Shown piece after piece: positions 11,061 to 17,187 of a stretch of 64,000 bases of DNA. Source of the DNA: Mesostigma viride (lineage: Eukaryota > Streptophyta > Mesostigmatophyceae > Mesostigmatales > Mesostigmataceae). Location of the stretch: assembly GCA_009746045.1 (NCBI GenBank), contig RPFO01000065.1:4036509-4100508 (forward strand). The letters run 5' to 3'. How positions within the stretch are numbered: the first letter of the stretch is position 1; the number at the start of each line of letters is the position of its first letter. The notes under the pieces were generated by a model. That model searched no databases and was not told the DNA's origin. It was given only the letters and a program-made list of their open reading frames with translations. The translations under genes were made by a program, and so were the position numbers.

Positions 11061-14000
11061 TCAGACCACCCACACGCTCTGCGCACCCCCCGCGCGTGAC
11101 GGCGCGCCGCCGCCAAACATGCTCCCACTCCTTTCACTGCTGCTTCCCAAACGCTCAGGGAACGGGTGGCGCCCCCCTAGCGAAGTGGCCTGCTGGAACC
11201 GCCGCACCCACCCCACGTCACCCCCCTGGACCCAATGCACCAGCCGCTCTAAACGGGATCGCTGGTACCGAACCAGCATCGCGTCGTGCGGGTTTGTGAA
11301 CTCCGATTGGTACGCCTTGTCCCACTGCTCGTGTTCCAAAAACGCGGCCTCGAGGGACGAACGCGGCGACCGCGCGTCTTCCTCGGCAGTGCCCACCGTG
11401 ACGCCCTGATGGTTGCCCAACCCTGTGTCACCAAGTGGCGCCGGCGCGGGGATCGGCAACGCCGACGGGCTGTCCTTCTCCACTACCTCGTAAAGCTGCA
11501 GCGAGTAGGCGCCGCCCTTCATCATGCGGCGGCCCACGCACTGCATGCGGCAGTGCATGAGCGCCTCAAAGGACTCCATGTCTTGCGGGGTGAGCTGATG
11601 GGAAAAAGAGAGAGAGAGAGAGAGAGAGAGAGAGAGAGAGAGAGAGAGAGAGAGAGAGAGAGAGAGAGAGAGAGAGAGAGAGAGAGAGAGAGAGAGAGGG
11701 GGGGGGGGGGGGGGGCGGGGGAGAAAGAGGGAGGGAGGGAGGGAGGGTGTGCGTGTGTGTTTTGGGGGTGGGTGGGTCAAGGGGGACGAGAAGACACAAG
11801 TGGGCCGCGAATATACAGAAGGGGGTAGGGGTAAGCAGGAGGTCCCCACCAAAGGAATTATCAACGTGATGGCCTAACTATTGGCGTACGTCCCTGTGCG
11901 TTTGTGCCAGTGGGCCAGATGTCCCTAAAAGTGCAATCCAGTCACCATCACAACATGCCCACTACCAATGACCCTGGCCGTTTGCTCACGCTCCAGGGTG
12001 GCATTTTGCCACAGGCCGGATGCTGACAGCCCTCAGTAGACTGGCCCCAAATCACACTTGCTGGCGCCGGCACGCGGCATCCCAATCGGCATCCACTTGT
12101 GGCATGCAGCAATCCGACGGTCCCCCTTTCCACCCTTCAAGCTAACCATGGGTGACGCACATGCACGCACACACGCCCGCCCGTGCAATGCCCGCCCGCC
12201 CGCCCGCCCGCCCACCCACCCACCGACCCGCCCGCCCGCCCGCCCGCCCGCCCGCCCGCCCGCCCCCCGCCCGCCCGCCCGCCCGCCCGCCCGCCCGCCC
12301 GCCCGCCCGCCCGCCCGCCCGCCCGCCCGCCTGCCCGCACACACGCACACACACGCACACATACACAAATATATACGCTGATACACACATATACGTACGC
12401 ACACATACACATATACGCACACATACACAAATACACGTGGCCTCATGTACATACATACCTGCACGGCCACGAGCTGCGAGGCCAGGATCTGCTGCGGGAG
12501 GGCCCAGTAGGCGAGCCGCTGCGTCTGGCGCACGAGGGGGCCCTGGTAGAGCGCGCGACCCGAGGCTGGGTTGGGGATGACGTCGGTCGGCACACCCGAG
12601 TGGATGCCGATGGTCACCTGCAGACCGCCCAGTGCGGACGGCACGCACGCGCCGCCCTTGCTGACTCCGCCATTCGATTGGGGGTTCTGCTGTGAGGGGG
12701 GAGCGCAGCCGACAACATGGCCAGTTGCCGCAGGTAGCAATCATGTCAGAGGGGGAGCCTGGCAGAGGGCAGGCCTGCCAGAACAAGAGAAAACCGCCCA
12801 CGCCAACTCCAGGCGCGGCTTGTCCATGCAGCGCACGCCTGACCAAGCCCAGCACACAGAACTGACTGCTTTGAATTAGTATCCAGGAGAAAAAAAAATA
12901 TCTTGCGCTGCACAAAGGAGGGCACATGACCATACCATTCCCTGGCATCCTTCCCACGGCATGAGGCCCTAGTGCAAGGGGGCACAGACATGCGGCACTC
13001 AGGTCGGAGAGCACAGCGGCAAAGGCAGGCTAATTCAAATCTGTCAAGCTACAAAAGCATGTATGTGTTGCGAGAGCCAAGGCCACACCTGCATGCAACA
13101 AGCCACGCGCATCCAGGGGGGAGTCCGGCTTGACAACGCACACGAGAAGATGTGCATGCCTGCCACCACTTGTTGACACGCATGTCGCTGGAAGAGGGCT
13201 GGCGGCACCCTCGCAAAGCCCAGTGCATGGGTAAGGGGGGTTGCTTGAACGTTGGCGCACTTCAGCAATAAAAGGTACAGATCCTAGCAGCATCATGCAC
13301 GAGTTACGGCGTGATGAAGCTAGGTCGCAGCCCCATTGAATCCGCGATGCATGGGCAGTAAGCCACACGAGCCAGAACCACGCCACCTGGACATGCACCG
13401 CGGGACTCTACTGCCGTACACCACCTGGCGTAGCATCAACCGCTGCACACGACCCACCTTCCCTCGGCCCCCACATACCGCTGGCCACCTCCCACCAAAC
13501 GTTCCAAATGGTTTGACGTGGGCCCCAGTCTCCTCAGATCCCCACTGTCCACATGTTGGCATATGTTAGCAAAAGGATAGCGTGGCATGTAAAGCCCATG
13601 CCGGCGCCGGCATGCGCCACCCGCATGAACCCAGCAACAGATGGACCCACTGACCAAAGATATGATAGTAACACATACCAGAAATATAATAAGAACACAT
13701 ACCATAAATACAATAAGAACACATACTAGGAATGTAATAAGAACAGATACCAGAAATGTAATAAGAACACATGCCAGAAGTGTAATAAGAACACATGCCA
13801 GAAGTGTTATAAGTACACATACCAGAAATGAAATAAGAACACATACCAGACATGCAATCCGAACACTCACCCCCTGTGCGCGCGCCGTGCGGCCGAGCAG
13901 CCTGGGATCCCACCCAACCATCTGCAGGCGCTCGTTCAACGAGACGGCCCAGACCAGCGCGTGCGCGGCCTCCTTGAACGCGACCATGAAGCTAACGCCC

Positions 14001-17000: not shown

Positions 17001-17187
17001 TGCTGTTCTTGGCACGCACACCGCCTACTTCCAAGAGGGAAAACCCCGCCTGCATCATGAACACTAGGCATCCGCAGATCAAAAGCCAAGCGTGGTCTAG
17101 GGCCTTTTCCGTCTCCTCAATTTGCTGCTGGAGCCGAGCCACATTAGCCTCAAGTGTGGTGATTTCGATTTCAGTACTCGGGTCCAT
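11061..17187 (-). CDS. AMT: Ammonium transporter fused to tandem class III cyclase domains (5 exons, ~1,060 aa)
   Basis: Exons on the minus strand are 17187-15584, 15536-15167, 14317-13871, 12686-12459 and 11594-11061 (stop). Junctions 2-4 are in phase 0 with good sites (CAG/GTGAGC, GGG/GTGAGT, CAG/GTATGT). Intron 1 would be only 47 bp and is the least certain. Residues ~30-412 are a complete AMT channel with [18 protein letters not shown]182, and the twin pore histidines H190 (DFAGSSVVH) and H348 ([10 protein letters not shown]). The conserved C-terminal regulatory tail ([16 protein letters not shown]) follows. Cyclase domain 1 (~449-658) has both metal-binding Asp: D456 (LTDVEGST) and D499 (YTEGDAFF). 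The substrate-selecting Lys position is Tyr495, and the usual VN..AAR reads VVEVTRA. Domain 2 (~690-920) keeps VTIGIHSG and GPLVRQTQR but lacks the metal Asp. The product is probably a membrane protein turning ammonium status into a nucleotide signal; catalysis is unproven. Confidence 0.85.
11607..11715 (+). repeat. (GA)n microsatellite and G run at the AMT exon-5 acceptor
   Basis: About 46 GA units are followed by a run of roughly 17 G. On the coding (minus) strand this is C-run-(CT)n, lying directly upstream of the TTTTTCCCATCAG acceptor of exon 5, so the microsatellite acts as the polypyrimidine tract. Confidence 0.9.
12177..12450 (+). repeat. (GCCC)n tetranucleotide and (CA)n microsatellites in AMT intron 4
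   Basis: About 155 bases of CCCG/CGCC units run from 12177 to 12334, followed by CACA/ATACAC repeats to about 12440. They end just before the exon-4 donor. The long open frames that cross them on either strand are products of the repeat and are not genes. Confidence 0.9.
13668..13860 (+). repeat. 24-bp minisatellite in AMT intron 3 (~8 units)
   Basis: Imperfect units of the form aataagaacacataccagaa plus four bases follow one another eight times, ending at the exon-3 donor. Frames crossing it are open in several phases because the unit is a multiple of three. Confidence 0.85.

Follow-up and report, generated by a model that had tools for sequence, protein, structure and literature searches.

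The window analysed here is a 64,000-nucleotide stretch of the Mesostigma viride genome (assembly GCA_009746045.1, contig RPFO01000065.1, positions 4,036,509 to 4,100,508), and the gene of interest lies on its minus strand, from an ATG at 17187 to a stop at 11061. The predicted gene encodes an ammonium transporter (AMT) channel that runs directly into class III nucleotide cyclase sequence. Exon 1 (15586-17187) is one uninterrupted frame holding the ATG, the complete AMT, its C-terminal regulatory tail, a linker and the N-terminal half (about 90 residues) of a first class III cyclase domain, C1. Exon 2 (15167-15490) carries the second half of C1. The two halves of a second cyclase domain, C2, lie in exon 3 (13871-14317) and exon 4 (12459-12689), and exon 5 (11061-11594) adds the end of C2 and a tail without recognised similarity that continues to the stop. 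The first-pass annotation had described five phase-consistent exons. This holds for introns 2-3, 3-4 and 4-5, which are all GT-AG and phase 0, but not for exons 1 and 2, which are out of frame with each other. The GC content at third codon positions is 0.81-0.90 across all five exons. Long simple arrays lie within the introns: (AG)46 at 11607-11698, GCCC repeated 37.5 times at 12190-12338 and a 24-bp unit repeated 8.2 times at 13670-13866.

A single open frame covers the AMT and roughly the first 90 residues of C1, which makes the fusion independent of any exon prediction. Residues 1-534 of the exon 1 product are identical to the public protein P0144 (EukProt, jgi/Mesvir1/24047/Mv10781-RA.1). 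The AMT-class III cyclase fusion is genuine, and the proposal of a single AMT-cyclase polypeptide is borne out by the shared frame and by 18 other proteins with the same layout (see below). The complete pore domain and the tandem C1-C2 are likewise observed. When 11 relatives were used as tblastn queries, exons 1 and 2 were matched, with P0021, P0082, P0002, P0003 and others aligning in the frame of exon 2; some also matched exon 3 (P0002 and P0006) and exon 4.

The AMT channel domain (15892-17091, residues 33-432) matches the full Pfam profile Ammonium_transp (PF00909; 1-399 of 399, E 6.8e-111, 371 bits against a cut-off of 23.2). Comparison with E. coli AmtB at 15 positions that we take to be functionally important gave 13 identities, both pore histidines (H190 and H348) included. 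AmtB residues F107, W148, D160, H168, F215, S219 and H318 correspond to F123, W164, D182, H190, F242, S246 and H348, and F119 of the window protein is also among the pore residues compared. The two changed positions are S263, which is Asn294 here, and D313, which is Glu343. The conserved C-terminal tail (15889-15954, about residues 412-433, placed by alignments and spacing) keeps the motif HGGSAYPDF and leads straight into C1, with 17 residues between AYP and the cyclase motif VVxTD.

The first half of C1 (15586-15852) contains the metal aspartates D456 and D499, and its assignment draws on Pfam, on alignment to the receptor cyclases GRESAG 4.1/4.3 and on a table of active site positions. Guanylate_cyc (PF00211) matches residues 450-620 of the joined protein (E 6.5e-12, 45.8 bits against a cut-off of 21.9), a result that assumes the exon 1/2 join; exon 1 alone scores 18.9 bits, under the cut-off. 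C2 has no Pfam match, exon 5 included. A profile made from the C2 domains of 20 other proteins matches exons 3-5 with E 1.1e-30, its alignment reaching into exon 5, and the best open reading frame outside the gene, among 501 in all six frames of the window, has E 0.52. The second cyclase domain is thus recovered by this profile where Pfam is blank. Exon 3 lacks metal aspartates and has an insert of about 20 residues. Exon 4, assigned by tblastn, motif reading and the C2 profile, has diverged where most relatives read GRADYxGPxVNxxAR.

Relatives of the protein were collected from both of its parts. With the cyclase part as query, 7995 candidates were scored and 19 proteins found, led by green-algal tandem cyclases together with a single environmental protein that carries NHL and LamG; AMT was among the listed Pfam domains of none of the 19. 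The search with the AMT part was limited to proteins of 575-1829 residues; the best 120 of 1888 matches were listed and part of the 120 was examined. Much of this list consists of Amt proteins joined to a kinase, chemoreceptor, PII or GGDEF domain, and at least 13 of these best 120 of 1888 continue from the AMT into C1-C2 (P0021, P0024, P0026, P0027, P0029, P0030, P0036, P0038, P0039, P0048, P0049, P0082 and P0110), their cyclase domains often being too diverged for Pfam. A profile search brought in P0140-P0143 and P0145. The AMT-C1-C2 set comprises 19 proteins when the predicted product of the window gene is counted as a putative member. Measured in 18 rows, the linker between AMT tail and cyclase motif spans 13-18 residues. 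Each of the 18 others is listed as one predicted protein, 16 come from contigs of 2.7-4.3 kb, and these environmental sequences are probably eukaryotic. Counts over the relatives are not independent, since P0036 and P0038 (97% identical) and P0140 and P0141 are near-copies.

P0021 (1405 residues, on a jgi contig of 4290 bases) has a protein kinase after AMT-C1-C2, with the plant kinase CTR1 as its best relative among solved structures, and it is possible that this protein is a three-step ammonium signalling protein. P0049 has ankyrin repeats besides AMT-C1-C2. Two EukProt transcriptome proteins, P0020 (1561 residues) and P0146 (1957 residues), have two tandem AMT domains and so a layout unlike AMT-C1-C2. 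P0020 has a complete single class III cyclase domain behind its AMT-AMT and is apparently an independent AMT-cyclase fusion; one origin for all AMT-cyclase fusions including P0020 was rejected in the C1 tree (p-AU 0.018). A single clade without P0020 was not rejected (p-AU 0.42 for 17 C1 rows and 0.40 for 18 AMT rows), the groups tested having been picked after the first tree was inspected. One origin without P0020 is neither shown nor rejected. The C1 tree omits P0008 (which has no start motif), P0030 and P0038, and the AMT tree omits P0038. In viral contigs, tblastn of the cyclase parts matched none of 80 AMT-relative loci (80 of 219 confirmed). Among eight Mesostigma AMT loci (3.6-4.2 kb, two of which overlap) drawn from 29 exon matches, cyclase sequence was present only at that of the window.

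The catalytic, metal and purine positions of C1 and C2 were assigned from class III cyclase biochemistry. On this assignment Mesostigma C1 keeps both metal aspartates. In Mesostigma C2 the purine-site Asp is replaced by Leu838, the catalytic Asn by Arg845 and the Lys position by Ala726, and Arg849 is kept. Neither domain has a catalytic Asn or a purine-site Asp at the expected place. Among the 17 relatives with a complete C2 (P0030, whose C2 is truncated, is left out of the counts, and P0082 was read by motif because the alignment misplaced it), the purine Asp is present in 16, the Asn in 16 and the Arg in all 17. The Lys of the purine site is found in 14, with Gln in P0021, P0082 and P0145. 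C1 of the relatives has the first metal Asp in 14/17 and the second in 15/17, and all five residues (both C1 Asp and the C2 Asp, Asn and Arg) are kept in 13/17. No AMT-C1-C2 row has Asp at either C2 metal position. The environmental members P0036, P0140 and P0143 have complete predicted active sites. Degenerate C2 domains are also found in Trebouxia P0003 and P0005.

Mesostigma has a paralogous tandem class III cyclase (L091, G000:C1457:1532700-1542600, exons at about 4412-7340), and the stretch read there contains no AMT match. The C2 of this paralogue reads GRAAYYGPVINRTAR, in which the Asp is lost and the Asn and Arg are kept, so the loss of catalytic residues is not general in Mesostigma. 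Since C2 of the fusion lacks the Asp, the Asn and the Lys, the Mesostigma protein is unlikely to be catalytic on its own, and its output is probably that of a pseudo-cyclase. The direct link to cAMP or cGMP that the first-pass annotation drew for this protein is accordingly not supported as it stands, given these replacements and the apparently broken frame of C1 at the exon 1/2 junction. The weaker form of the claim, a nucleotide-binding signal, would still be possible because C1 keeps both of its metal aspartates.

The known systems nearest in layout are bacterial. Sd-Amt1 of Shewanella denitrificans is named a receptor in the titles of its PDB entries, and its output is presumably a diguanylate cyclase. 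Ks-Amt5 of Candidatus Kuenenia stuttgartiensis is an Amt-histidine kinase whose Amt module is described in passages of PMC5764959 as an ammonium sensor, a precedent that agrees with the sensor role claimed earlier for bacterial Amt modules. Like Ks-Amt5 and Sd-Amt1, the window protein has an Amt fold with a signalling domain directly behind the C-terminal tail. Where they have a kinase or a GGDEF domain, this eukaryotic protein has a tandem class III nucleotide cyclase as its output. Ks-Amt5 and Sd-Amt1 are the best sequence matches of the window AMT among solved structures, and they are also the best structural matches of a fold model, made for the relative P0036 and not for the window protein itself.

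Two ammonium ions are bound in Ks-Amt5 at Q24, E31, N47, D50, T51, T109 and T112, and F27, Y30 and F34, along with a shifted histidine pair, close its pathway (PMC5764959, in the same passages). The seven site positions read Q, E, N, D, C, T and S in the window protein, so that Q24, E31, N47, D50 and T109 are present, T51 is Cys and T112 is Ser. At the closing positions, F27 is kept, Y30 is Leu52 and F34 is Gly56, as judged by sequence alignment alone. Because of Leu52 and Gly56 a pore block of the Ks-Amt5 type is not predicted and transport may persist. The site was compared in 15 of the 19 AMT-C1-C2 rows, of which P0110 lacks the first helix. Its glutamate is present in 15/15 of these rows, in 4/4 bacterial fused rows and in 7/19 non-fused rows. 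The full set Q, E, N, D and T is found in 13 of the 14 AMT-C1-C2 rows whose first helix is intact and in five of the 19 non-fused AMTs. This pattern fits a sensor whose pore may be open, but the shared site could also be due to descent alone.

The cyclase part resembles a different set of proteins. Mammalian membrane adenylyl cyclases are pseudo-heterodimeric, with a single composite site formed by metal Asp from C1 and Asn/Arg from C2, and most AMT-C1-C2 relatives show the same division of labour between their two domains. In the mammalian enzymes the two domains alternate with two six-helix cassettes, whereas here C1 and C2 follow each other behind one AMT channel. The kinetoplastid receptor adenylate cyclases GRESAG 4.1/4.3 have a lone cyclase domain that pairs with another copy on a single-helix receptor, unlike the tandem domains on a channel seen here. 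They are the closest solved structures by sequence for both the window C1 and the C2 of P0021, and by fold for the C1 of P0036. The green-algal tandem cyclases (P0001 of Pedinophyceae, P0003 and P0005 of Trebouxia, P0004 of Raphidocelis and P0006 of Tetradesmus) and the environmental P0002 share the C1-C2 order, have their metal aspartates on C1 and are 30-43% identical to the window protein over the aligned part. They differ in what accompanies the cyclase: leucine-rich repeats in P0003 and P0006, NHL/LamG in P0002 and cyclase only in the others, with AMT in none. In the eukaryote Dictyostelium an Amt protein, AmtA, is described as a sensor of ammonia, which acts on cAMP in a system that includes the histidine kinase DhkC and the phosphodiesterase RegA (passages of PMC10559540). 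The Dictyostelium components are, in the same passages, separate proteins that act on cAMP breakdown, and the Amt is not joined to a cyclase.

We consider it somewhat more probable than otherwise that the locus is one nuclear gene for an ammonium channel with C1-C2, that its output in Mesostigma is a pseudo-cyclase and that the family as a whole serves as an ammonium sensor or transceptor. In this proposal the AMT trimer would be the sensor. Ammonium binding or passage would shift the C-terminal tail, which through the short linker would alter the packing of C1 against C2. The packing change would tune a single composite site, to which C1 would give the two metal aspartates and C2 the Lys/Asp of the purine site and the Asn/Arg of the transition state. 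The product of the intact relatives would most likely be cAMP, and most family members are probably cAMP-forming. In the Mesostigma member the composite site would be crippled, so that the protein would bind nucleotide but not turn it over, or would depend on a partner for a complete C2.

Several observations weigh against this reading. Four of the 17 relatives (P0024, P0026, P0027 and P0110) are missing at least one of the two C1 metal aspartates, and pseudo-cyclase versions may therefore have arisen repeatedly. The AMT part bears no mark of a sensor that non-fused AMTs lack, because some of these share the site and the best sequence matches in the PDB: the non-fused Mesostigma P0150 also has the complete five-residue Ks-Amt5 site, and for P0150 and P0172, likewise non-fused, the best PDB sequences are again Sd-Amt1 and Ks-Amt5. 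For the latter reason the idea that the AMT part is specifically of the bacterial sensor type was rejected as evidence. The fused family is weakly supported as a clade (30/0 and below), and the eukaryotic origin of the relatives is something that we infer. The remaining points lie at the exon 1/2 junction (15491-15585), where a run of 13 G occurs and the frame changes inside C1. Enumeration of GT-AG and GC-AG joins for introns of 20-260 bases gave no convincing phase-consistent splice. The joins that keep the conserved WPPRLMEH either imply GT-AG introns as short as 35 or 47 bases or use a GC-AG intron with a poor donor (for example 15581/15490). P0144, the public model, is 538 residues long and ends in ...LMEHRAWV inside C1, as fits an intron at 15583-15491 followed by a stop. 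The frame change may be an unspliced offset at the 13 G run, an assembly error, a real frameshift or an unusual splice. A DNA search of the Mesostigma assembly for a second copy of the gene, which could have settled the junction, returned only its own locus and one 93-base match of 73%, which is a tandem-cyclase paralogue without an AMT match in the stretch read.

The main rival explanation is that the gene has decayed or is truncated in this strain, so that its product ends at 538 residues as an AMT with half a cyclase and no output, while C2 drifts. The end of P0144 and the frame offset fit such a product, as do the three catalytic positions lost in C2, and the 7570 pseudogenes with frameshifts and/or premature stops counted in passages of the Mesostigma genome paper (PMC6947507) set a background for it. 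Against decay, no stop interrupts exons 2-5 (1536 bases), their GC content at third positions is that given above, the domain sequence is recognisable to the end of C2, and the three downstream introns have kept their GT-AG phase-0 sites. An assembly error is also plausible at the junction because the 13 G run sits at the offset. We regard truncation as unlikely on balance. It is less likely still that the Mesostigma protein is itself active as an adenylyl or guanylyl cyclase under ammonium control, working with unusual catalytic residues. Such an enzyme would make use of D456 and D499 in C1 and Arg849 in C2, and both domains are recognisable by profile, but it would have to dispense with a catalytic Asn and a purine-site Asp that 16 of 17 related C2 domains keep in each case, and of which the L091 paralogue of the same organism retains the Asn, along with the Arg. 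The single frame change, at 15585-15491, could also be read as the seam between two adjacent genes, an AMT and a cyclase, merged in reading the DNA. The seam would then lie within C1 and not between the AMT and C1, where AMT and half of C1 are in one uninterrupted frame and one annotated protein, and the same domain order recurs in 18 other single predicted proteins. This explanation was rejected on the shared frame and is very improbable.

The reading as a sensor family with a pseudo-cyclase in Mesostigma can be put in a stronger form, which we offer tentatively and at less than even confidence. There would be a hitherto undescribed eukaryotic family of ammonium receptors, present in an early-branching streptophyte, in which the channel controls an attached pseudo-heterodimeric adenylyl cyclase and so converts extracellular ammonium into cAMP. 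The Mesostigma copy would by now be a pseudo-cyclase that binds nucleotide, or would serve another cyclase as its regulatory partner.

Repeats and mobile elements surround the gene. Just upstream of the ATG there are two tandem copies of a 64-bp unit (17340-17468, 98% matching), and further upstream a local repeat gives near-identical peptides, EHLPRGKSPLAVGSPYGGHDH, in neighbouring minus-strand frames at 18587-18874 and 19387-19797. A Ty3-type integrase frame with a chromodomain (Pfam rve, Integrase_H2C2 and Chromo) lies at 787-2064 on the plus strand. Reverse transcriptase frames of the non-LTR retrotransposon kind are found at 40267-43760 (minus strand), adjoining an endonuclease-like frame, and at 49247-52243 (plus strand). 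The open frame at 30625-31290 (plus strand) encodes ankyrin repeats.

Among the PMC titles and abstract openings examined, none describes a eukaryotic AMT-class III cyclase fusion, which is weak evidence of novelty since most subscription journals fall outside that scope. The main text of the Mesostigma genome paper has neither the word 'ammonium' nor the word 'cyclase' (PMC6947507), and 'cyclase' is also absent from a survey of Chlamydomonas AMTs (PMC11353525). In Chlamydomonas, ammonium represses nitrate genes via nitric oxide, the soluble guanylate cyclase CYG56 and cGMP, and the passages of PMC4620153 on this repression mention no fusion of an ammonium channel with a cyclase. Sensor Amts of the bacterial kind are already known, and the new part would be the AMT-C1-C2 output architecture in a eukaryote. 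The sensing of external ammonium in photosynthetic eukaryotes is only partly known, and a channel and a cyclase in one chain would be a direct, testable ammonium receptor. The Mesostigma copy would reveal whether such a sensor can outlive its own catalysis.

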